Below the pieces are notes generated by a model. It saw only the letters and a program-made list of their open reading frames with translations, was not told the origin of the DNA and ran no database searches. DNA of 64,000 bases from Paraburkholderia flava. GTDB taxonomy: Bacteria; Pseudomonadota; Gammaproteobacteria; Burkholderiales; Burkholderiaceae. This document shows positions 51,947 through 63,591 of this stretch, piece after piece (positions within the stretch are counted from its first letter, which is position 1; each line of letters starts with the position of its first letter). The DNA is taken from the NCBI RefSeq assembly GCF_004359985.1, contig NZ_SMRO01000004.1:434001-498000 (forward strand), read 5' to 3'. The translations under genes and the position numbers were made by a program.

Positions 51947-52350
51947 CGCCCCCCTCTCTTCATCAAGCCGGCCGGCAAACGATTCGCGGTTTCGCATTTA
52001 ACTTCGCATACCCGAGCAAATCGTTTCGCGGGCCGCGCTATAAAGCCAGTGTGCGCGCGACCCCGTCAACCTTACCCATCGAATCGCATCGATCGGTAAG
52101 ACCGAACGCAGCGTCATCGAAAAAACCGCACCGAACGGTCTGTTCAGCCACGGCCTTTCGACACACGCGTTTCGCGACACCCTATCCGATCGACATCATT
52201 TGCCGGTCAGCGCATTTTCGTCTTGAAATTAACGCAATGCACTGCCAGGCTATGCGCCGGGCGCGTTTCAGCAGGAGCCCTTAGCTGTCACCCCACTCAT
52301 CGCGATGGCCACGCTAGCTGTCGCGAGATCACAGACGAGGAACGTCCAAT
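51947..52350. other. intergenic region before pilM
   Basis: 404 bases, no convincing gene. It contains the hairpin at 52071-52100. A Shine-Dalgarno-like GAGG precedes the pilM ATG. Confidence 0.45.
52071..52100 (+). terminator. hairpin in the lipase-pilM gap
   Basis: CTTACC (52071-52076) and GGTAAG (52095-52100) pair, with ATCGA (52078-52082) and TCGAT (52089-52093) inside, one C-C mismatch and a six-base loop. No U-tract follows, so it is a weak terminator or a dyad site. Confidence 0.45.
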
Positions 52351-52821
52351 ATGTGGGCAATCTGGATCATGATTGCCGGCGCGGCGCTCGCTTCTTTTTA
52401 TGCGTTGTTGCCGGATGCCAATCTGGCCGGCCCGCCACCCGACATGCCCGCCGCGCTGGCAGGCGACATGGCGACCTACCGCAGCCAGCTCGAGAACTAC
52501 GTACTGCAGAATCCGACGACGGTGGGTGCGGTGCCGCAGACGCAGTTCGTGCAGCCGGCCAACTGGAACTACACGTCGTCGCGCTGGCAGAACTACGTCA
52601 ACAACAAAGTCCTCGTCGTGTACCCCGCCACGGGCGGCGTACCGTTGCCGCCCGGATTCCTCGGCGCGATGCTCAGGCAGGCCGGCTACTCGGTCGAAGC
52701 CGGCTCGTCGCAGAGCGGAGAGATCGTCAATCCACTGAACAACGGCGGCAACGTCACACTGCCGGCCGGCATGCCCCCACTCACCGACGGAACGCCCGTA
52801 TGGATCGCACAAGTTTCCTGA
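52351..52821 (+). CDS. pilM: PilM-like minor protein of an R64/IncI1-type IVb pilus
   Basis: 156 residues. An N-terminal hydrophobic helix (MWAIWIMIAGAALASFYALL) is followed by a soluble domain with MATYRSQLENYVLQNPT and a WNYTSSRWQNYV segment, the pattern of PilM in thin-pilus (R64, TraBIL-linked) clusters. PilM there is an accessory inner-membrane pilus-assembly protein. It is coupled to pilV: its TGA overlaps the pilV ATG (TGATG). The rest of the type IVb machinery (pilN-U, prepilin peptidase) is not in the window. Name is by similarity of pattern and position, so moderate. Confidence 0.68.
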   Translation: MWAIWIMIAGAALASFYALLPDANLAGPPPDMPAALAGDMATYRSQLENYVLQNPTTVGAVPQTQFVQPANWNYTSSRWQNYVNNKVLVVYPATGGVPLPPGFLGAMLRQAGYSVEAGSSQSGEIVNPLNNGGNVTLPAGMPPLTDGTPVWIAQVS

Positions 52822-54452
52822 TGCGCCGCGCTGCTGCGCGACCGGCTCGATACGCTCGACCCGCTCGACGACAACGCGGCATCACGTTGCTCGAAACGCT
52901 CGCCGCGCTGCTGATCGGCGCAATGGTGATCGCAGGCATCGCGACGATGATCAACAGTTCGTTGAAGGACAGTCGCGATCAGCAGGTTGCCGAGTATCAA
53001 AAGCAGCTTGCGAATGCGGTGAATCAGGCGATTAATCTGAATTACGCGACGGTTCTCGACAACGTTCCGGCCGGGCAGATCACCACCTGGTCCACTGCCG
53101 ACATGGTGACGCAAAAGCTGATCCCAGCCAGCTACGCGAATGCCCAAAACGCGTTCGGGCAATCTTATTGTCTGCTGTTGCAGCAGCCGGTCGTCGGACA
53201 GATCGACGCGCTGCTCGTCAGCACCAACGGCACCCCAATTCCCGACGCCGATATCGGTTATATCGCGGCGAACTCGGGTGTTGGCGGTGGCTTGATCAAG
53301 GCGGGCAATCCAGTTACCGCGATTGGCGCCTATGGCGGCTGGAGCACGCCGGTCTCGACCTGGAACTCGCAGACGTGCGCGGGCACGCCGGGCCATCTCG
53401 TCAGCCAGGTATTCACGAACGGTCCGGGCAATTCACCGGCCGACGATTTTCTGTATCGCAATGCGGTGCCGAACCGGCCGGATCTGAATGCGATGAATGT
53501 GCCGATCGGGTTAAGCATGGTCACGGCCGGCACCGGCTGTGCCAATTTCACCGCCACGTCCGCGCCCTTCGCGGCCGATACGAGCAATCACTTGCTGACG
53601 TGCATCGGGGGATTCTGGACGCCGACGTCGTGGCGCGAGCCGGTCGCCAATGTTGCCGCGTTGCAGACGCTGGCAGGCCAGGTGCCGGCCGAGACGCGTG
53701 TCACACTCGACAGCAAGCTGCCTTATACGTGGAACGGGACTACGTGGGTGCCGGTTGCGATCGACGACAATGGCGCGCTGAATTTCCCGAAAGTCGTTGC
53801 TGCGGGTAACCAATGCGGACTAGGACTCGACGGCAAAGCCCAAACAGACCCAGCCGCATTGCAGATCGGTGTGAATTCGAACGGCGAGGTGCTGTCCTGT
53901 CAAAGCGGTCTATGGGCAAGCACGGCAACTATTGTGCTCGGCACGATGGACGCCAACTGCCAGATCATCTACCCGGCCAGCGGGCCGCCGTATGACTACC
54001 CCAACTGCCTCGCGCCGAACAACGCGAATTCATGGGATTCAGTCTCCGGCACGATGAACAATTACGTCTACCGAAACGTGTCGCTCAAACGCAATGCGCT
54101 GATCACCGTAACGAGCTACGCACATATGAACTATGCGCAATGCGGCAAGTCGGGATGGCTGGGGCAACTGGCGCAGTATCTGGACATCATGGACTCGTCG
54201 AAAACGACGTCGTACGCGCACACGGAAATGCAGACACCTAATATCTCCGATGCTTCCGGAGGCGTGAGCATGTCGCTGAATCAGCCGTTACCGCCTGGCA
54301 ATTACGTGATCAGTATCAAGACGAACTGGGGGGCATTCACGGGGCCGGGTACGAACGGAGCAACGTGGTTTTCCAGCTACTGTCCGGCGGGGGGTGGAAC
54401 CGTCATCAATACGCCGCTAGAGATGGGGTGGAACGTGAGTACCGTGTATTGA
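52821..54452 (+). CDS. pilV: PilV-like minor pilin (type IVb, shufflon-type adhesin tip)
   Basis: 543 residues. The prepilin-peptidase site is clear: RQRG|ITLLETLAALLIGAMVI, Glu at +5, then a 20-residue hydrophobic helix. The passenger is long for a pilin, with paired Cys (CQIIYPASGPP, NCLAPNN, SYCPAGGG) and a SWREPVANVAALQTLAG linker typical of R64 PilV before its variable C-terminus. PilV sits at the tip of thin pili and recognises recipient lipopolysaccharide; in R64 a recombinase swaps its C-terminus. No rci recombinase gene or 19-bp sfx repeats were seen, so this one is probably fixed. An alternative ATG at 52800 adds seven residues. Confidence 0.8.
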   Translation: MRRAAARPARYARPARRQRGITLLETLAALLIGAMVIAGIATMINSSLKDSRDQQVAEYQKQLANAVNQAINLNYATVLDNVPAGQITTWSTADMVTQKLIPASYANAQNAFGQSYCLLLQQPVVGQIDALLVSTNGTPIPDADIGYIAANSGVGGGLIKAGNPVTAIGAYGGWSTPVSTWNSQTCAGTPGHLVSQVFTNGPGNSPADDFLYRNAVPNRPDLNAMNVPIGLSMVTAGTGCANFTATSAPFAADTSNHLLTCIGGFWTPTSWREPVANVAALQTLAGQVPAETRVTLDSKLPYTWNGTTWVPVAIDDNGALNFPKVVAAGNQCGLGLDGKAQTDPAALQIGVNSNGEVLSCQSGLWASTATIVLGTMDANCQIIYPASGPPYDYPNCLAPNNANSWDSVSGTMNNYVYRNVSLKRNALITVTSYAHMNYAQCGKSGWLGQLAQYLDIMDSSKTTSYAHTEMQTPNISDASGGVSMSLNQPLPPGNYVISIKTNWGAFTGPGTNGATWFSSYCPAGGGTVINTPLEMGWNVSTVY

Positions 54453-54464
54453 GAAGGGTAAAGG

Positions 54465-54511
54465 CGGCGCGACCGTGGCGGTACGTCGCAGCACGTATCG
54501 CCGTCGCGCCG
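54465..54511 (+). terminator. strong terminator-like hairpin after pilV
   Basis: CGGCGCGAC (54465-54473) pairs with GTCGCGCCG (54503-54511). Inside, GGCGGTACGT (54477-54486) pairs with ACGTATCGCC (54493-54502) with one mismatch, around a six-base loop. It begins 12 bases after the pilV stop. The run TTTCTC follows, so a rho-independent end for pilM-pilV is likely. Confidence 0.78.
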
Positions 54512-54737
54512 ATCACTTTCTCTCCCGCGACGCGTCACTGAAACACCAGGTAACAAACTCTTGCGTCAAATCGACGGAATAGCACCACCCCGCGACACGT
54601 TCTGACTACAGCAGGCGCATTTCGTCGAGCCTTCATGTGCTCCGGCTATGCGTCCTGCCAGGCGAACCGATGGGGTCTACACGGTGTCGGCGCGGCGCCC
54701 CGCGTCGCGATACCGGACCGTCGAGCAGGACGAATTC
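54512..54737. other. gap before the His-rich lipoprotein
   Basis: About 225 bases with no gene recognised; it probably contains the promoter for the lipoprotein-DUF1571 pair. Confidence 0.4.
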
Positions 54738-55259
54738 ATGCGCAATTTCATTGGACTCGGCATCGTGGTGTGCAGCTGCGTCGCATGCACGACGGCGGTC
54801 GTGCCGCAACCCGCCACGCAGTCATATTCACCGACCGCAGCAGCCGTGTCGCCCACGTGCCGGCCGGTCAACGCCACCGCGAATGTCGACGGCAGCCCGC
54901 AGAACCTGACCGGCCTCGCATGCAAACAGCCCGACGGCACCTGGCGGATCCAGCAGCCGGACGCAGGCGTCGACGTGCTGCCGCCATACGCGAACGATGC
55001 GGACTATGCGGACGACTATCCGTACTACCCGTATTACGACCCGTGGTTCTACGGGCCGCTCGCCTTCGGCTTCGGCGGATCGATCATCTTCGTGAATCAT
55101 TTTCACCATTTCCATCATGGGGATCATGGTCACTATGGCGGACACGGCGGCTTTCATAACGGCTTTCACGGAGGCCACAGCTTTCATGGCGCTGGATTCC
55201 ACGGAGGCAACAGCTTCCCTGGCGGCGGTGGATTTCACGGCGGCGGCGGACGTCGATAG
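54738..55259 (+). CDS. His/Gly-rich lipoprotein
   Basis: 173 residues from ATG 54738 (MRNFIGLGIVVCSCVACTTA), where the lipobox-like C-V-A-C precedes TT. The mature chain has a Tyr/Asp-rich patch (DYADDYPYYPYYDPWFYGP), then a tail from HFHHFHHGDHGHYGGHGGF onward in which His and Gly alternate for about 60 residues to GGGRR. Such tails bind transition metals or act as flexible spacers. Exported and membrane-anchored by inference. Its stop is four bases before the DUF1571 gene, so the two are probably one operon. Confidence 0.75.
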   Translation: MRNFIGLGIVVCSCVACTTAVVPQPATQSYSPTAAAVSPTCRPVNATANVDGSPQNLTGLACKQPDGTWRIQQPDAGVDVLPPYANDADYADDYPYYPYYDPWFYGPLAFGFGGSIIFVNHFHHFHHGDHGHYGGHGGFHNGFHGGHSFHGAGFHGGNSFPGGGGFHGGGGRR

Positions 55260-55262
55260 TTC

Positions 55263-56243
55263 ATGCAGCGAGAAGCCTCACGCAACCGTCGATGCAACCG
55301 CCGATGGAACCTCCACACCTCCGTCAGAGACGCGATGTGGTCGGCGGTTGTGTGGCTGACGATCGCGAGCGCCCTGTCGCTGTGGATCGCATGCGACGCT
55401 CGCGCCGCAGAAACGGAAACGGAAGCGGGCGCATCAGCGGCCACAGCGGAACGAAGCCCCGGCGTTCCACCGACGCAGGTCGGCAAGCTGCCAGTCGATC
55501 AGCAAGTCCGCTGGCTACGTCACGCCGCACAAACCGGCGCGCTTGAAAAACTCGACGACACCCAGCTGCTCGCGCTGTTCCAGTCGCTCGATCCGCTGAC
55601 CGTACCGCGCTATATCGAAGCGGGACCAAACGGCTATCCGTCGTACGAGTTCACGATGATGCGTCGCGAGCGCATTCGCGGCATCTGGCCGAAGCGCGCC
55701 GATCACATGCTGGTGCGACTCACACGAGAGCCCCTGCGGATCTACGCAAAATGGCTGCCCGACGGCGCGCATGCGGGCCAGGAAATCATCTATGACGAAT
55801 CCCGGCGCAGCAACGAAATCTACGGCCACCTGGGCGGCCTGCTGAACGTGATGCCAATGTGGGCCTCGATGAACGGCGCGCTCGCGCATGCGCAGTCGAA
55901 TCATCAGGTGCGCGACCTCGGCACCGAGTTCATCGCGAGCCAGTTTCTCGCCGAAGGCAAAAAGTTCTCGGAGTCCGGCGTCATGCGTCCGGAGCGGATC
56001 GACGTGCAGACGATCGACGGTGTACGCGTCGTCGCATTCACGTACGAAACGCCCACGGGCCAGCCCGAGTTCTACGCGAAGAAGGAAACGCTTGGACTCG
56101 ATCTGCGGCATCCGTGGTTTCAGACCGCCGAGTCCTACGACAACGAAGGCCGCCTCTTCGAAAAGATCGTGTTCGAAACAGTCACGCCGCAAACCTTCGA
56201 CGACTCGACGTTCGATCCGAAGAACCCCGCATACCGCTTCTAG
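55263..56243 (+). CDS. DUF1571-family exported protein
   Basis: 326 residues. The Arg-rich start (MQREASRNRRCNRRWNLHTS) leads into a hydrophobic signal segment (MWSAVVWLTIASALSLWIAC) ending ...ARA; a start at ATG 55335 would lack a basic n-region, so 55263 is preferred. The mature protein has DHMLVRLTREPLRIYAKWLPDGAHAGQEIIYD and YETPTGQPEFYAKKETLGLDLRHPWFQTAESYDNEGRLFEKIVFE, the DUF1571 hallmark blocks. It probably binds lipid or polysaccharide in the periplasm. Function is unknown. Its TAG stop begins the left direct repeat of the insert. Confidence 0.85.
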   Translation: MQREASRNRRCNRRWNLHTSVRDAMWSAVVWLTIASALSLWIACDARAAETETEAGASAATAERSPGVPPTQVGKLPVDQQVRWLRHAAQTGALEKLDDTQLLALFQSLDPLTVPRYIEAGPNGYPSYEFTMMRRERIRGIWPKRADHMLVRLTREPLRIYAKWLPDGAHAGQEIIYDESRRSNEIYGHLGGLLNVMPMWASMNGALAHAQSNHQVRDLGTEFIASQFLAEGKKFSESGVMRPERIDVQTIDGVRVVAFTYETPTGQPEFYAKKETLGLDLRHPWFQTAESYDNEGRLFEKIVFETVTPQTFDDSTFDPKNPAYRF

Positions 56244-56339
56244 GCCGCGCGCAACACCGCGCTTCCCGCGCAAAATCCGGCGCGCCGGTAGAATGCCCTG
56301 ATCCCCGCAGCCCACACCACGACGAACAATCTCGACTTC
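56241..56339 (+). repeat. left copy of the ~95-bp direct repeat flanking the insert
   Basis: Starts TAGGCCGCGCGCAACACC and ends CTCGACTTC. It matches 61088-61180 over its whole length with a few substitutions and short gaps; the core GGCGCGCCGGTAGAATG and CTGATCCCCGCAGCCCACAC are identical apart from one base. It holds the ykgJ upstream DNA and a broken copy of the ykgJ start (ACGACGAACAATCTCGAC for ACAATGAACGATCTCGAC), so no ATG remains. Confidence 0.88.
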
Positions 56340-56396
56340 TACAGGGACGGGGAGTCGCCAGCGCCTGGCCGCGGACCCCGACGGAGGTAGCGAGTA

Positions 56397-57191
56397 GTGA
56401 CCACCAGTGAACGAAAGCCTGGAACGGCAGCGGGTGTTTCTTCCAGTCGGCTCCCATCGATGACGCCGTCGCTGCCCGCGCGGCCCCTGCGCATTCTGCT
56501 CGTCGAAGACGATGTCGACATGGCGCGCCTCATCGGCCAGACCATTGCCGAGAACGGGTTTTCGCCACGGTTCGCCGCCTCGGCAACGGAGATGGATCTT
56601 CAATTGCGCGATGGCGACATCGATCTGATTCTTCTCGACAACATGCTTCCCGGCGAAGACGGACTTGAAATTTGCCGTCGCTTGCGAACCGTGTCGAGCC
56701 TGCCGATCATCATGCTGACAGCGTCCGATGATGACGGCGATCGCATCAACGCGCTCGAGCTTGGCGCTGATGACTACATCACCAAGCCCTTCAACTCGCG
56801 CGAACTGGTCGCGCGCCTTCGGACCGTCATGCGGCGGAGCCAGCTCGGACGAGGCGCCGACGCTGTGCGCCCTCGGACCTTTCGATTCGCCGGCTGGTGC
56901 GTCCATACCGTCGAACGTCAGCTCTATAACCCGGATGGCGCGCGCATAACGGCAACGAGTGCCGAATTCGATCTTCTTGTCGCCTTCTGCCTTAACCCGG
57001 GCCAGGTCATTTCACGGGAGCAACTGCTCGACCTGACTTATGGTGGCGCGGCCGGCCCTACCGAGCGAACCGTCGATGTTCATGTCAGCCGCATCCGTCA
57101 GAAAATCGAGGCCGATCCCCGAGAGCCGACGCTAATCAAGACCGTGCGGCTTGGAGGCTATCTGTTCACTCCACCGGTGGACGCGTCGTGA
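56397..57191 (+). CDS. OmpR-type response regulator
   Basis: 264 residues from GTG 56397 with GGAGGTAG nine bases upstream; an ATG 21 codons later is the alternative. Receiver domain has Asp38-Asp39 (VEDD), phosphoacceptor Asp81 (LLDNMLPGEDG), Thr in MLTASDDD and Lys130 (YITKPF). The C-terminal winged helix (TATSAEFDLLVAFCLNPGQVISREQLLDLTYGG ... VDVHVSRIRQKI) binds DNA. Cognate kinase follows with a four-base overlap. First gene of the insert between repeats. Confidence 0.96.
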   Translation: MTTSERKPGTAAGVSSSRLPSMTPSLPARPLRILLVEDDVDMARLIGQTIAENGFSPRFAASATEMDLQLRDGDIDLILLDNMLPGEDGLEICRRLRTVSSLPIIMLTASDDDGDRINALELGADDYITKPFNSRELVARLRTVMRRSQLGRGADAVRPRTFRFAGWCVHTVERQLYNPDGARITATSAEFDLLVAFCLNPGQVISREQLLDLTYGGAAGPTERTVDVHVSRIRQKIEADPREPTLIKTVRLGGYLFTPPVDAS

Positions 57192-58585
57192 TCGACAGCC
57201 TCAAACGATATTTGCCGAAGAGCATCGCGGCCCAACTGACCACTGTCGTTCTCGTGTCCGTTCTGCTGGGGGTGTTGCTGACGACAGCCACATTGAGCAT
57301 CGTCGTCACGCGTTCGGGGATGCGAATGGATCCGGAAGCAAAGGCCGCGTCGGAAGCGGCCCGCATCGCGACCATCGTCAAAGAGGCGGCGAACGCCCGC
57401 TCGCCCGAGCAATTGGCGAATGTGATCGCCGGTGCGCAATCAAGCACGGGCTCTGTCCGGCTGGTGTCAAAACGGGAACTGCCTGACGCCTCGGGCGAGG
57501 CGAGCAGCTACGTGAAGCGAGTGTCCGCCGGCTTGCGGCAGAGCTGGCATATCGATCCCATTGCGATGGCCACGCATTCGATCGCCGTCGATATTGGCGA
57601 CGGGCGAGCGCTCCTGTTTCAGGAATCCGAACGGCAATTGCTGCAGACGTTTATCACCGTCCAGGCGATCGTCGGTATCGGCTTGATTGTCGTCGTCGTT
57701 CTGGCACTTTCGATCTACGCGATCGGTTGGGTCACAAGACCCTTGTCGACGATCGCCCGGGCAACCCGGGCATTTGGGCAATCCCCGCACAACGACGACC
57801 CGCTGGACACCAGCGGCCCCGCCGAAATTGCACAGGTTGCGGAAGCGCTCAACGACATGCGCCGACGCATCCGCAAGCTCGTCGACGATCGAACCGGCAT
57901 GCTGGCCGCGATCAGTCATGACCTGCGCACGCCGCTGACGCGTCTCAAGCTCCGTTCCGAGCGCGTGACGGATGCCGGGACACGCGCCGCCATGTTGAGC
58001 GATATCTCTGCCATAGACGGCATGGTCCGCGGCGCATTGACTTACTTGCGTGATGGAGGAACGTCGGAGGCATTGCAACTTGTCGATCTTCCAAGTCTGT
58101 TACAGACGATATGCGATGCGTACAGCGACATCGGATCGGATGTCGTTTACTCCGGCCCGGCGCGCCTGAATTTTGTCTGCCGCCCGGAGGGGCTGACCCG
58201 CGCAGTCATGAACATCATCGATAACGGCGTAAAGCATGGAACTCAGGTCGGGGTTTCCCTTGAACAACGAGGTCCGGGTGCAGTCGGAATCGAAGTCTGG
58301 GACAACGGCCCCGGCATTCCCGCAGACCTGCGGGAGAAGGTATTCGAACCGTTCTTCAAGGTTGACAGCGCACGCTCGGTGGCGAAGAGCGGGTTCGGGC
58401 TGGGCCTTTCCATTGCGAAAGATATTGTTGATCGCCAGGGCGGCACGATCACCTTGTCCGACAGGTCGCCATGTGGATTGTGCGTGCGCCTATCCCTCAG
58501 AGCAGATTTTCATCAGAGCGGCAGCGATGATTTGCCAGCTAGCAGACTGAAGATGCCGCCGTCGACAACACACGTTTCGGCATAG
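57188..58585 (+). CDS. sensor histidine kinase
   Basis: 465 residues from GTG 57188, overlapping the regulator stop (GTGA). Two membrane helices (about 19-41 and 157-180) flank a periplasmic sensor of about 110 residues with no recognised fold. HAMP follows, then the H-box with phosphoacceptor His244 (LAAISHDLRTPLTRL). The ATPase has N (MNIIDNGVKHG), G1 (VWDNGPGIP), F (FEPFFKVDS) and G2 (SGFGLGLSIAK) boxes. It should phosphorylate the partner regulator in response to an unknown extracytoplasmic signal. Possible ligands are those of the exported MBL and GlcG-like proteins downstream. Confidence 0.96.
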   Translation: MIDSLKRYLPKSIAAQLTTVVLVSVLLGVLLTTATLSIVVTRSGMRMDPEAKAASEAARIATIVKEAANARSPEQLANVIAGAQSSTGSVRLVSKRELPDASGEASSYVKRVSAGLRQSWHIDPIAMATHSIAVDIGDGRALLFQESERQLLQTFITVQAIVGIGLIVVVVLALSIYAIGWVTRPLSTIARATRAFGQSPHNDDPLDTSGPAEIAQVAEALNDMRRRIRKLVDDRTGMLAAISHDLRTPLTRLKLRSERVTDAGTRAAMLSDISAIDGMVRGALTYLRDGGTSEALQLVDLPSLLQTICDAYSDIGSDVVYSGPARLNFVCRPEGLTRAVMNIIDNGVKHGTQVGVSLEQRGPGAVGIEVWDNGPGIPADLREKVFEPFFKVDSARSVAKSGFGLGLSIAKDIVDRQGGTITLSDRSPCGLCVRLSLRADFHQSGSDDLPASRLKMPPSTTHVSA

Positions 58586-58772
58586 CAGCCGTCGGCTTGA
58601 GGCATCGGCCGGATTCCCCGTGCGCACGTCCCGCAGCACGCTGCAACATCTCTAAATATCACTAAACATCCGGCAGCATGTGCTCGCTCTACATTAGGAG
58701 CGCTTGCTTCCGTGATGTCGGCCGGCTGCGCCGGGGTCCGGAATGTCACGTTGACGCTCAAGGACTCATGCC

Positions 58773-59375
58773 ATGCAAAAAGCTATCAGGCGAAACGCCT
58801 TTCGTACCCTTCTCTTATTTCATTTCCTCGGTATTGCTCTGTCAGTCGGATCGCGCTTCGTCGACTTCGTGATCGAGAAGCAGACCGAAGATTCCAGTCT
58901 GCAAATGCTCACGTTCGGTCGCGATCTCACCGGCGTCACCGCGCGAACGCTCACTGCCCCTGGGTTCTGGCTGGTTATCGTGACAGGCGTAGCGATGACC
59001 CTCCTGCGATACGGGCGCCGACCACCGATCTGGGTGTGGATAAAAATAGGGCTGACGGTCGTGGGCCTGGTCGTAGCCTCCGCGCTTGTCGCACCTGCGT
59101 TGCAGGCTTCGAGGCAGTGGGCTCACTGGAGCGTTGATCACAATCAACTGGCGCAACAGTTTGTGCAGAGCGCGTCCCACGCGTCCTTTTACGGGGCAAT
59201 AGTCTTCACGCTGTTTCTCATCAATCTTCCCGTCGCGATCTGGAAGCCGTTCCTGTCGGTCAAGCCGCCATTTTCAGGCAGCAAAAAAAGCGAAGCCCAA
59301 GCGATCGTCGAACAGGCAGGCGGCACGGCTTCGAACTCAATCCCTTCTGTCAAACAAGTCAACCTCGGGAAGTAA
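58773..59375 (+). CDS. four-helix membrane protein (DUF2269/CopD-like)
   Basis: 200 residues with four transmembrane helices: RTLLLFHFLGIALSVGSRFVDF, FWLVIVTGVAMTLLRYG, WIKIGLTVVGLVVASALV, and ASFYGAIVFTLFLINLPVAIW. The LFHFLGIALSVG start and a Thr/Pro-rich turn before helix 2 recall DUF2269/CopD-type integral membrane proteins, some of which bind haem or copper. Tail of about 50 residues is hydrophilic. Five bases upstream of the MBL gene, so co-transcribed. Family call is tentative. Confidence 0.75.
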   Translation: MQKAIRRNAFRTLLLFHFLGIALSVGSRFVDFVIEKQTEDSSLQMLTFGRDLTGVTARTLTAPGFWLVIVTGVAMTLLRYGRRPPIWVWIKIGLTVVGLVVASALVAPALQASRQWAHWSVDHNQLAQQFVQSASHASFYGAIVFTLFLINLPVAIWKPFLSVKPPFSGSKKSEAQAIVEQAGGTASNSIPSVKQVNLGK

Positions 59376-59379
59376 AAAT

Positions 59380-60372
59380 ATGCTTCGCAAGACCCTGCTG
59401 CTGCCCTTCTGCATCACTGTCATATCAACCGTCGCCTCCTTCGCACACGCGCAGGGAATCGATTTCGACAAGACGGCTTTTACGGCTCAACAACTCGCGC
59501 CGAATGTCTATACCCTGACAGGCTCGCCAGGTACCGACCCCGGACATCCCGAGGCCGCTGGAGGACGCATCGGTTTTATCGCCGGTCCCGATGGTGTGTT
59601 GATGGTTGACGCGTCCTATGCGCCGCTCGCACCGAAGGCACTCGCAGCGATCCGCAAGATCACTCCGGGGCCGATCCGCTATCTGGTCGACACCCATTCG
59701 CACCCGGACCACACCGGCGGCAACCCCTTTTTTGCCAGACAGGGCGCGTTGATCATTGCGCGGGAAGAAGCATGGCAAGACCTGAACCAGCCGCCACCAC
59801 CCGCTTTGCTCGCGGCGATCGGCCGCGCGGCGTCTTATACCGATCCGGCCCGGCTGCCGACCATCACCTATGGGCCGAACTCGATGCTGAAGATCCGGAT
59901 GGATGGCGAGACGATCGATATCATCGCCGCGCCGCCCGGCCACACGAACGGGGACACCCTCGTGCGGTTTGAGAACGCGGACGTCATGATGATCGGTGAT
60001 ATCTATCGGAATTATGGCTATCCGTTTGTCGATCCTGCTCATGGCGGCACGTTCAAGGGCATGCTCGCGGCGATCGATCTCACGCAGAAGATTGCTGACT
60101 CAGGAACGAAGCTGGTGCCTGGCCACGGCGGCATCATTACGCGGGACGACCTGGTTCCGTACCGGGAAATGATCGTGGCCGTTGCCGCGCGTGTGCAGGC
60201 GATGATCGCCGCGGATCGTTCGCTCGATCAGGTCCTGGCCGCAAAGTTGACGGCTCCCTACGATGCTCGCGTCCGCGGGGGACTCGATCCCCTGCCAGCA
60301 GGCCTTGGCAACAGCGCTGACCGCTTCATTGGCGCCATATATGCCGAGATCAAGAAGAACGGCCCGCTTTAA
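59380..60372 (+). CDS. exported metallo-beta-lactamase-fold hydrolase
   Basis: 330 residues with a signal peptide MLRKTLLLPFCITVISTVAS cleaved near AHA-QG (24/25). Zn-binding motif H106-S-H108-P-D110-H111 in VDTHSHPDHTGGN, later APPGHTNGDTL, MIGDIY and PGHGG. This places it in the extracytoplasmic MBL group with quinoprotein-relay and other periplasmic hydrolases rather than classic beta-lactamases. Substrate unknown. Fourth gene of the insert. Confidence 0.92.
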   Translation: MLRKTLLLPFCITVISTVASFAHAQGIDFDKTAFTAQQLAPNVYTLTGSPGTDPGHPEAAGGRIGFIAGPDGVLMVDASYAPLAPKALAAIRKITPGPIRYLVDTHSHPDHTGGNPFFARQGALIIAREEAWQDLNQPPPPALLAAIGRAASYTDPARLPTITYGPNSMLKIRMDGETIDIIAAPPGHTNGDTLVRFENADVMMIGDIYRNYGYPFVDPAHGGTFKGMLAAIDLTQKIADSGTKLVPGHGGIITRDDLVPYREMIVAVAARVQAMIAADRSLDQVLAAKLTAPYDARVRGGLDPLPAGLGNSADRFIGAIYAEIKKNGPL

Positions 60373-60522
60373 AGCGCACACAGGAAGTTTCGATGGGGGT
60401 GCCGACATGCGCGCAGTGATGTTGCGAATCGCCCGCTTCGCAGCTGACTCGAGAGCGCTCGCTCCCGCAAACGCTCGCATGACGGAGTGGTCCATTTCAA
60501 CGTCGGCCTGGGAGATCACGGC

Positions 60523-61038
60523 ATGGGTTACCGCCGCAGCTGGAAGCAAATCGTGTTGAGCAGTTCGCTCCTGTTAGTGGCGACTCCAAAGCCCGCATTC
60601 GCCGTTGACCTTGTCCTGAATCACCGCATTTCCGCCGCGCTGGCCAATGAAGCGGTGGCCGCTGTCGTGTCCACCTGTGCAGTCAGGGGCTACACGGAAT
60701 CCGCAACCCTCGTGGACATCGATGGCGTCCCCGAAGCTACGTTGCGCGGCGACGGAGCGGGAGTACATACGCAGGAAAGCGCGAGCGACAAGGCGTACAC
60801 GAGCGTCAGCTTGAAGATCGACACCTTGACGCTCAAGGGGCAGGTGCAGAACACGGTCGCCCCCGGGGGACCCTTCTCGAAATTGCCTCATCTTCTGCTG
60901 TTCGGCGGTGGCGTCGTCATCAAGCTTGGATCTGAGACCATTGGCGCAATCGGCGCCGCTGGAGCGCCGGGAGACAAGATCGACGACGCCTGTGCTCACG
61001 CGGGTTTAGACAAGATCAAGGATCGCCTGGTCCCGTGA
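60523..61038 (+). CDS. exported GlcG/HbpS-family (haem-binding-like) protein
   Basis: 171 residues from ATG 60523 (GGAGATCACGGC upstream), signal peptide MGYRRSWKQIVLSSSLLLVA ending about ...PAFA. The mature part (LVLNHRISAALANEAVAAVV, LKIDTLTLKGQVQNTVAPGGPFS, LFGGGVVIKLGSETIGAIGAAGAPGDKIDDACAHAGLDKI) matches the GlcG/DUF336 fold, of which HbpS binds haem and signals to a sensor kinase in Streptomyces. By analogy it could present a ligand to the kinase at 57188. The characteristic C-terminal GAPG...D..CA..G motif is kept. Confidence 0.85.
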   Translation: MGYRRSWKQIVLSSSLLLVATPKPAFAVDLVLNHRISAALANEAVAAVVSTCAVRGYTESATLVDIDGVPEATLRGDGAGVHTQESASDKAYTSVSLKIDTLTLKGQVQNTVAPGGPFSKLPHLLLFGGGVVIKLGSETIGAIGAAGAPGDKIDDACAHAGLDKIKDRLVP

Positions 61039-61087
61039 TCTTCTTCCGCCACCTCGGAGGCGCTTGCGATCGGTGTCGAGATTCACT

Positions 61088-61180
61088 TAGGCACCGCGCG
61101 CCACACCCCGCGCAAAACCCGGCGCGCCGGTAGAATGCCTGATCCCCGCAGCCCACACCACAATGAACGATCTCGACTTC
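61088..61180 (+). repeat. right copy of the ~95-bp direct repeat; native ykgJ upstream region
   Basis: Starts TAGGCACCGCGCGCCACACC and ends ATGAACGATCTCGACTTC, which are the promoter-proximal DNA and first codons of the YkgJ-like gene. It is the functional copy because its ATG is intact; the left copy at 56241-56339 is a duplicate that has lost it. Confidence 0.88.
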
Positions 61181-61933
61181 AACTGCACGATGTGCGGCAA
61201 ATGCTGCCACGGCCTGCGTCTCGCATTGACCGTCGACGAAGCGCGCGCGTGGCTCGCGCGCGGCGATCGCGTGGAGCTGATGTGCGAGGCGATTCCGTGG
61301 CCGGTCGAACCGGACGCGGACAACCGCGAGGCGAACTACCGTCGCGCGCGCTCATTCCCCGCCACGAGCGGCACGTTGCCAGTGCGCATCGCGGTGCTGC
61401 TCACCGGTACGTTCGACGGTCCTTGTCCGAATCTCGGCGCGGACATGCGCTGCGGCATCTACGAAACGCGGCCGCACGTGTGCCGCATCTATCCGGCGGA
61501 GATCAATCCGTTCGTCACGCTCGATCCCGCGAACAAGGGCTGCCCGACCGATGCGTGGCACGGCGAACCGATGCTGCGCGAAGGCAGGCTCGTCGATAGC
61601 GAAGTGCAGGCGGTGATCGATAGCGCGCGCGCAGCCGGCGAGCGCGACGTGCCGGCGAAGGCGCATCTGTGCGCGACGCTCGGCATCGATCGCGCGGCGC
61701 TCGCGAACGAGGGCTTCGTTACGTACACACCGGAACCGCGCGCGTTGCTCGATGCGTTATCCGATGCAATCGATGCAGCGAAAGCGCACGCCCAAACGCA
61801 CACGTCACATCAATGGACGTTCGTATCGAACCGCCGCGAAACCATCGGCACGCTCGAATCGGTCGGCGCACAGGCGAACGTACCGGACGCGACAAACGCA
61901 TACGGCTACCTCGGATTCTTCGCAGCGACGTAA
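61163..61933 (+). CDS. YkgJ-family cysteine-cluster protein
   Basis: 256 residues starting MNDLDFNCTMCGKCCHGLRL. The N-terminal C-x2-C-x2-CC motif (FNCTMCGKCC) and the later GPCPNLGADMRCGIYETRPHVCRIYP and NKGCPTDAW supply the zinc or Fe-S cluster ligands of UPF0153/YkgJ proteins. Function is unknown. A neighbouring DUF1571 gene is interrupted from it by the 4.8-kb insert. Confidence 0.9.
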   Translation: MNDLDFNCTMCGKCCHGLRLALTVDEARAWLARGDRVELMCEAIPWPVEPDADNREANYRRARSFPATSGTLPVRIAVLLTGTFDGPCPNLGADMRCGIYETRPHVCRIYPAEINPFVTLDPANKGCPTDAWHGEPMLREGRLVDSEVQAVIDSARAAGERDVPAKAHLCATLGIDRAALANEGFVTYTPEPRALLDALSDAIDAAKAHAQTHTSHQWTFVSNRRETIGTLESVGAQANVPDATNAYGYLGFFAAT

Positions 61934-62010
61934 TCGAAGCAACGCATTCGCTCACTGCGCCCGCGATACATCACGTAAAATCGGCACATCATTCGCCAAC
62001 CCTCGCACGC

Positions 62011-62757
62011 ATGTCCGCGGATCCCTCACCACGCAACCAGGAAGGCGTCGCCGTCATCGACCGCGCATGCGCGATCCTGTTCGCGTTCAAGCCGACCGAC
62101 AATGCGCTCACGCTCGCCGAACTCGCCGCGCGCACCGGCCTCTACAAGAGCACGCTGTTGCGTCTCGCGGGCGCGCTGATCCAGCATCGTCTGCTGGTGC
62201 GTCTCGACGACGGCCGCTATCAGTTAGGACCCGCCACTTTTCTGCTCGGTGCGCTGTATCAGCGCAGCCTGAATCTCGGCGACGTCATGTTGCCATTGAT
62301 GCGCGAACTCGCCGAAGCGAGCGGCGAGAGCGTGTCGTTCTATGTGCGCGACGGTGCCGTGCGCGTGTGCCTGCATCGCGTCGATTCGAAACACGCGGTG
62401 CGGTTTCATGTGCATGAAGGCGATGTGCTGCCGCTCGAAAGCGGGTCGGGTGGTCAGACGCTGCTCGCGTTCGGCGGCGAACCGGGTGCGGCATTCGAGC
62501 GGATTCGTCAGGATTTCTATTGCGTGTCGATCGGCGAGCGCGATCGCGACACCGCCGGCATCTCGACGCCGGTGTTCGGCATCCAGCAGACGCTGCGCGG
62601 CGTCGTCACGCTCGCGGGTCCGAGTTCGCGCATCGACGATGCGTTCGTCGCGAACAATCTCAATGCGCTGTTCGATTGCGCGGCGCGCGCGACCGAAGCA
62701 CTCGGTGGCGACGCGCGTGCGTTGCGTGATGCGCAGCGGGCACAGCGATCGAAGTAA
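62011..62757 (+). CDS. IclR-family transcriptional regulator
   Basis: 248 residues from ATG 62011 (MSADPSPRNQEGVAVIDRAC). N-terminal wHTH (LTLAELAARTGLYKSTLLRLAGALIQHRLL) and a C-terminal effector domain containing VCLHRVDSKHAVRFHVHEGDVLPL. Convergent with the citryl-CoA-lyase-like gene (nine bases), so it probably controls that cluster or another transcript. An upstream in-frame start is Arg-rich and unconvincing. Confidence 0.93.
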   Translation: MSADPSPRNQEGVAVIDRACAILFAFKPTDNALTLAELAARTGLYKSTLLRLAGALIQHRLLVRLDDGRYQLGPATFLLGALYQRSLNLGDVMLPLMRELAEASGESVSFYVRDGAVRVCLHRVDSKHAVRFHVHEGDVLPLESGSGGQTLLAFGGEPGAAFERIRQDFYCVSIGERDRDTAGISTPVFGIQQTLRGVVTLAGPSSRIDDAFVANNLNALFDCAARATEALGGDARALRDAQRAQRSK

Positions 62758-62766
62758 TCGCGCGCA

Positions 62767-63591
62767 TCACCCCAGGTGCCGTTCCGCCTCACCGGTATAA
62801 CGATACGCAACCTGCCTTGGCATAGGCCCCTTGTTCCGCTCATGACGTCCGCGCTGCTCCCACGCATGCGCGAGAATCCCGACCGCACGCGACAGACAGA
62901 ACACGCCGCGCGCCAGCTCTGCCGCAAACCCCAACTCTGCGTAAATCACCGCGCTCACGCCGTCGATGTTCATCGGCACCGGCTTGCCCTTGCGCGCGTT
63001 TAACAACGCTTCGATGCCACGCGCAATCGCTGCATAACGCCCGACGACGACACCCGCCTCCACCTGTTCATCGACGAGCGCCAGCAAGCGCGGCGCACGC
63101 GGATCGACCGGATGAAAGCGATGCCCAAAGCCCGGCAGATATTTGCCGCGCGTCTCGATGAACGCATCGACGCCCTGCTCGATCGCTGCATCGAACGGCG
63201 TGCCCGCATCGATGCGTTGCGCGATCTCGTCGTACAGTTCGACGGCCTGCTGTCCGGCGCCGCCGTGCACGTCGTCGAGTGCGTTGATCGCCGAGGCCAT
63301 CGCGCCGTTCAGCGGCAGCCCGCAACTCGTCGCCATCCGGGAGATCGCGATCGACGGTGCCTGCGGCCCATGATCCACCGATGCGACGAGCGCCGCTTCG
63401 AACAGCTTCGCCTGCGCGTCGCCGGGCAGTTCGCCGCGCAGCATCAGCCAGATCATCTGCGGAAAACTCACGTTGCCGATCAGCTCCTGCACCGGATAGC
63501 CGCGCATGCGGATCGAGCCCGGATGGATGTCGATGATCGACGTGCTCCAGTAGTCCGCGCACAGCGCAGCGGCGTCGAGTTTCTCGGTCAT
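62767..63591 (-). CDS. citryl-CoA lyase/citrate synthase-like enzyme
   Basis: 274 residues, markedly shorter than citrate synthase (about 430). Contains the citrate-synthase active-site strand GFGHRFHPVDPRAPRLL with the catalytic His and an Arg, and the substrate loop near INALDDVHGGAGQQAVELY, where the first catalytic His (DDVHGGAG) is retained. Acts on an acyl-CoA with an oxo-acid or aldehyde leaving group; citryl-CoA, citramalyl-CoA and similar are all possible. Partner of the CoA transferase gene next door, from which it is separated by one base. Confidence 0.85.
   Translation of the reverse strand: MTEKLDAAALCADYWSTSIIDIHPGSIRMRGYPVQELIGNVSFPQMIWLMLRGELPGDAQAKLFEAALVASVDHGPQAPSIAISRMATSCGLPLNGAMASAINALDDVHGGAGQQAVELYDEIAQRIDAGTPFDAAIEQGVDAFIETRGKYLPGFGHRFHPVDPRAPRLLALVDEQVEAGVVVGRYAAIARGIEALLNARKGKPVPMNIDGVSAVIYAELGFAAELARGVFCLSRAVGILAHAWEQRGRHERNKGPMPRQVAYRYTGEAERHLG

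Follow-up and report, generated by a model that had tools for sequence, protein, structure and literature searches.

Five genes in the genome of Paraburkholderia flava, flanked by two diverged copies of a sequence of about 95 bases, are probably an ordinary horizontal acquisition that left a scar, and the route by which they entered is uncertain. As a tentative reading, which we hold to be the most plausible single account, horizontal transfer brought in the set, and recombination at a short shared sequence, rather than transposition, built it into the genome; a single crossover of a circle would be the simplest form. The window, by which we mean the whole 64 kb stretch of DNA analyzed here, is part of a 523 kb contig in a genome of 6.97 Mb. 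The features of the locus are collected in Table 1.

Table 1. Features of the five-gene locus and its flanks, in window coordinates
Feature	Position	Strand	Basis
DUF1571 protein gene (PF07608)	55263..56243	+	Pfam
Left repeat copy with relic of ykgJ codons 1-7, ACG for ATG	56241..56342		Alignment, genome search
OmpR-type response regulator	56397..57191	+	Pfam
HAMP histidine kinase	57188..58585	+	Pfam; HisKA just under its cut-off
DUF2269-like integral membrane protein	58773..59375	+	Alignment members match DUF2269
MBL-fold metallohydrolase, signal-like N-terminus (by eye)	59380..60372	+	Pfam PF00753
HbpS-like protein (PF03928)	60487..61038	+	Pfam
Right repeat copy	61088..61183		Alignment, genome search
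ykgJ-type cysteine cluster protein (PF03692), intact	61163..61933	+	Pfam
IclR gene	Starts at 62011		Reading frame

The repeat was examined by local alignment. The left copy is 102 nt long and the right copy 96 nt; they share 94 aligned columns, of which 88 are identical and 6 are mismatches, with gaps of 2, 7, and 1 nt. The pair scores 129, whereas 500 block-of-two shuffles average 17 and never exceed 28, indicating that the duplication claimed in the preliminary description is real and lies at nearly the positions given there. The left copy runs from the TAG stop of the DUF1571 gene to ykgJ codon 7, and the right copy consists of the ykgJ leader and the first seven ykgJ codons. The loss of the ykgJ start codon from the left copy is likewise borne out, as the ATG at 61163 corresponds to an ACG at 56322. 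In this relic, as read from the alignment, three of the seven codons differ from the right copy, and every change alters the residue. A second aligner, MAFFT, held the register from about 56265 onward but lost it over the outermost 20-odd bases of the left side, which makes the exact left edge of the repeat uncertain.

Divergence between the copies is uneven. The repeat middle (56265-56320 versus 61107-61161) differs by a single substitution over 55 columns and by a one-base gap, and the ykgJ-codon part by 4 substitutions over 22 columns. The copies had been called diverged and hence not recent; the divergence stands, and as to age the event may be either old or one between partners that were already diverged. 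A search of the genome itself with the right copy returned the right copy, the left copy (86% identity over query bases 10-99), and otherwise pieces of at most 32 bases, with no further full-length copy. Both copies contain a 12-base perfect palindrome (56277-56288 and 61119-61130) followed directly by TAGAAT, and the motif CGGTARAAT occurs within the window only at the two copies.

At E 0.01, some match to the repeat was found in 19 of 141 genus genomes, our own included; the longest outside our own genome covers 69 bases at 72% identity, pieces of 20-32 bases recur in other genus genomes, and the full-length repeat is absent from the 140 others. Nor does any relative searched carry the full leader; the matches in 53 other genomes start at a query base of at least 70, where the ykgJ ATG is base 76. 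Inspection by eye of the sequence upstream of ykgJ in 31 relatives, of which two entries (L061 and L177) are the same place, also revealed no leader.

Between the copies lie the genes that the preliminary description had listed there; Pfam identifies the response regulator, the histidine kinase, the MBL-fold protein, and, for the protein described there as GlcG-like, an HbpS-like one (PF03928). The membrane protein itself lacks any Pfam match, DUF2269 included. DUF2269 is matched at E 0.01 by 19 of the 31 aligned members of the family of this protein, and the family alignment contains three invariant residues, H17, W119, and H123; compared with solved structures, the profile gave no match at E 1. 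The kinase gene overlaps the response regulator gene by 4 bases. For the regulator, OmpR was best among the 25 NCBIfam models listed, all of which scored below their cut-offs. The best NCBIfam model for the MBL protein was TIGR04559 (SoxH-related PQQ metallohydrolase), at 90 bits and thus below its cut-off of 280. An Rfam scan of 54000-63000 returned no match.

We then asked how foreign these genes appear. Both codon likelihood (Mann-Whitney p 0.002) and GC (p 0.015) are lower in the five genes than in 36 other ORFs picked automatically within the window. The two groups overlap: 9 of the 36 are no more typical than the most typical of the five genes. The comparison of codon use and GC with the flanks that had been proposed as a check thus sets the five genes apart as a group. 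The MBL protein is matched at E 1e-20 in 9 of the 143 other genomes of the genus (32-35% identity throughout), at E 1e-60 in 2 of 398 other genomes of an order sample (both at 44%), and at E 1e-80 in 0 of 397 other genomes of a phylum sample. Among the best 120 of its 3350 relatives (8000 candidates scored), most are unnamed metagenome proteins, and the named ones come from Granulicella, Devosia, Aliidongia, and a gammaproteobacterial MAG. For the membrane protein, Aliidongia and Bradyrhizobium supply the named relatives; for the kinase, these include Telmatospirillum, Methylocapsa, Roseiarcus, an Acetobacteraceae, and a Xanthobacteraceae bacterium. These names suggest a source outside Burkholderiales, perhaps among soil Alphaproteobacteria, as judged from the lineages and habitats of these organisms rather than from a tree. 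One database protein, P0001, with a contig of 4856 bases, is identical to the MBL protein at 322 of 330 positions; the first 25 residues, the signal-like part, contain the single gap and five of the seven mismatches.

In a plasmid collection, the membrane protein had no relatives, relatives of the MBL protein occurred in 199 records, and relatives of the HbpS-like protein occurred in 25 records, 7 of them Paraburkholderia; all of these relatives are below 60% identity. Because relatives of the HbpS-like protein at this level of identity occur on Paraburkholderia replicons, we do not extend foreignness to all five genes. Overall, at least part of the set was apparently acquired from distantly related bacteria, and by these comparisons a foreign origin is best supported for the MBL gene, within the genus as sampled.

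The kinase, the DUF2269-like membrane protein, and the MBL protein probably travel together elsewhere. We counted equal sizes of the longest contig per protein cluster among the listed relatives, from which sharing of a contig is inferred. Contig sizes in common numbered 10 for MBL and membrane protein, 8 for MBL and kinase, and 11 for membrane protein and kinase (one being the contig of the window itself), compared to offset controls that averaged 0.9, 1.0, and 0.6 and reached at most 5, 5, and 3, respectively. Six values are common to the relatives of all three. P0002, P0122, and P0202 are assigned to a contig of 41393 bases. Clusters P0121 and P0199 comprise two contigs each, indicating that nearly the same genes are also present on a second contig. 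In P0008, a relative of the membrane protein (63% identical, N-terminal part) is fused to an MBL domain, and in P0024 a cytochrome b561-type domain (PF01292) is fused to an MBL domain. A related two-component pair in Neorhizobium galegae (70% DNA identity over 10% of the query) adjoins a cytochrome b/b6 domain gene and MipA/OmpV genes. Counting against linkage, a 36% identical MBL relative in Phyllobacterium is without such neighbors.

From gene order, fusions, and families, the most likely reading of the five genes is a two-component system in control of a predicted redox-type envelope unit made up of the DUF2269-like protein, the exported metallohydrolase, and the HbpS-like protein. A literature search on DUF2269 and metallo-hydrolase returned no description of this gene set. 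To our knowledge, the combination of a two-component system, a DUF2269-like protein, and an MBL-fold hydrolase has no name; what our locus shares with its counterparts elsewhere is the same three families, probably on the same contigs, and in P0008 the fusion of membrane protein and MBL domain. The locus thereby points to a recurrent gene set.

The site was also sought in relatives. The DUF1571 gene is matched in 137 of 144 genus genomes, own included, and ykgJ is patchier, being found in 23 of the 59 genomes of a first sample, own included; the best genus matches to ykgJ over its whole length are 75-76% at the DNA level (G097 and G059). An IclR-citrate synthase block is present in many genus genomes. 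Outside the window, we fetched 95 loci for ykgJ, 59 for DUF1571, and 31 for IclR at E 1e-10, counts that are a subset of all matches and include some places more than once. None of these loci combines any two of the three genes, and the genes of the module occur in none of the 95 ykgJ and 59 DUF1571 loci, most of which carry about 1.5 kb of flank (38 ykgJ and 4 DUF1571 loci are at least 9 kb). Weak kinase and regulator matches near some relatives (28-36% identity, E 1e-4) were taken as generic, and the counts use E 1e-10. In P. acidicola (L061) and in G097, ykgJ, DUF1571, and the IclR block are located apart from one another. Our own genome carries a second DUF1571 gene (G000:C2:2197438-2198334) that is 66% identical to the window copy, which is itself closer to the genes of G115 (80%) and G087 (75%).

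As the fetched loci never combine these genes, the DUF1571-ykgJ neighborhood is seen in this genome alone, and the direct adjacency of DUF1571 and ykgJ that had been predicted for relatives did not appear in any fetched locus. A search for the empty site with proteins, DNA, and the repeat across the genus, a family sample, and named genomes yielded no syntenic comparator. The preliminary description would have taken the absence of an empty site anywhere as evidence against its proposal; as far as searched, the fetched loci include neither an empty nor an occupied relative, a result that reflects a lacking comparator more than a disproof. Of the insertion or replacement proposed there, the foreign component gains from the atypical composition of the group and from the MBL gene being foreign to the sampled genus, whereas a DUF1571-ykgJ neighborhood as the target is not borne out, given that none of the fetched ykgJ loci outside the window contains DUF1571.

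Taken together, several features point to recombination at a short shared sequence: the genes look foreign, the direct repeats are long and linked to ykgJ, ykgJ itself is intact, and the scanned proteins include no recombinase, with neither a tRNA nor convincing inverted ends found. In the simplest form, a circular DNA made up of the module and about 95 bases of ykgJ leader would have undergone one crossover with the resident leader between DUF1571 and ykgJ, which would formerly have been adjacent. The product would be an insert flanked by two copies of the shared stretch, with ykgJ kept intact behind its leader on the right and a truncated ykgJ start on the left. Direct repeats are present on both sides, as a single crossover requires, and we infer their resident status from the link to ykgJ. 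Several points weigh against such a crossover. Neither an empty site, nor a donor molecule with the leader beside module genes, nor a relative with the full leader was found among the fetched loci and genus genomes, and a donor whose share of the site spans exactly from the DUF1571 stop codon to the seventh ykgJ codon calls for an explanation. The overlap in composition with 9 of the 36 background ORFs also counts against it, and an inverted match just inside the repeats, described below, leaves some room for inverted ends.

Products of this kind are described in a study of Escherichia coli conjugation (PMC3240628), where a PCR product diagnostic of duplication was obtained in 56 of 60 clones and 14 sequenced clones had duplications of 109-950 bp beside the insert. 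Those authors explain the duplications by a circular molecule that integrated through one crossover after losing part of its homology; the remaining 4 clones were ascribed to homology-facilitated illegitimate recombination (PMC3240628). The likeness to our locus lies in an insert beside duplicated resident sequence for which a transposase is unnecessary; that case concerns a laboratory plasmid, whereas in P. flava the copies are diverged and a donor is not seen. In architecture, the E. coli single-crossover case is the closest match, followed by the illegitimate recombination proposed for Vibrio (discussed below). A literature search returned nothing on this site or mechanism beyond PMC3240628 and PMC5361080. 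If the single-crossover reading is true, the locus would be an old case from nature of an outcome known to us mainly from laboratory crosses, in which a foreign operon entered the chromosome without a mobile element and left the neighboring gene intact.

Homology-facilitated illegitimate recombination is an unlikely route, albeit one to be taken seriously. Here, a linear fragment carrying the module ahead of a donor ykgJ would have recombined normally on the ykgJ side and joined non-homologously inside the resident ykgJ on the left, leaving the seven-codon relic. Such a join would fit a left copy that stops within the ykgJ coding part, and the difference between the copies could be that between donor and recipient. 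A similar route is proposed for the insertion of an effector-immunity module in Vibrio (PMC5361080), where a foreign module likewise sits beside resident genes with old sequence left adjoining; other Vibrio strains show simpler intermediates, whereas here none was found. The usual products of this process carry a deletion of similar size, according to PMC3240628. As for loss of resident DNA in our genome, ykgJ is intact on the right, and the fetched loci offer no comparator. The lack of module genes at all 95 fetched ykgJ loci also argues against this route.

Slightly less likely still is that a tandem duplication of the DUF1571-ykgJ junction came first, with a separate insertion into, or replacement of, the left ykgJ copy. 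The relic-like left copy, with its residue-altering codon changes, would be consistent with this order of events. It requires two events, however, and a tblastn search of our own locus (L184) with ykgJ at E 1e-4 detected the intact gene only.

An unrecognized mobile element using the leader as its attachment site seems improbable. Direct repeats at both ends and compact cargo resemble such an element, as does an imperfect 12-base inverted match (11/12, score 19) just inside both repeats at 56355-56366 and 61057-61068, a score equaled in 19 of 500 shuffles. In agreement with the preliminary description, neither a transposase nor an integrase was found by Pfam among 18 scanned proteins encoded between 45594 and 63952, and ARAGORN detected no tRNA in the 64 kb window that could have served as an att site of an integrative element or genomic island. 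Target duplications of transposons usually span from a few to about 14 bases, and the repeat here is far longer than that. In viral contigs, peptide patterns yielded no confirmed relative of the MBL protein and none of ykgJ, and the repeat middle had no exact copy there. That two similar promoters arose independently, with no duplication, is scarcely credible: pieces of the repeat do recur in the genus, one weaker match among them spanning 69 bases, but the full-length match, ykgJ codons included, is far above shuffles.

Returning to the favored crossover, we considered what the left copy might do. The left leader sits just upstream of the response regulator gene, and the near-identity of the repeat middle suggests that it may be a putative promoter of that gene. 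It is a doubtful further step, which we would hold with little confidence, that the insertion gave the foreign regulator a resident promoter, ykgJ and the two-component genes each receiving a copy of the leader of which selection would have kept the middle while the rest decayed. Substitutions differ between the middle and the ykgJ part (Fisher p 0.02); for the middle versus both outer parts the difference is not significant (p 0.08), gaps being uncounted in both tests. A sigma-70 consensus scan of 56100-61300 returned no promoter-like site, so conservation is what the promoter reading draws on. If this is true, foreign operons could acquire a host promoter by recombining at short leaders.

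A separate observation concerns the region upstream of DUF1571, where 52305-54449 encodes a protein with a shufflon-type pilin N-terminal region (PF04917) that overlaps a PilM-like ORF at 52351-52818. This region is a possible site of DNA inversion.
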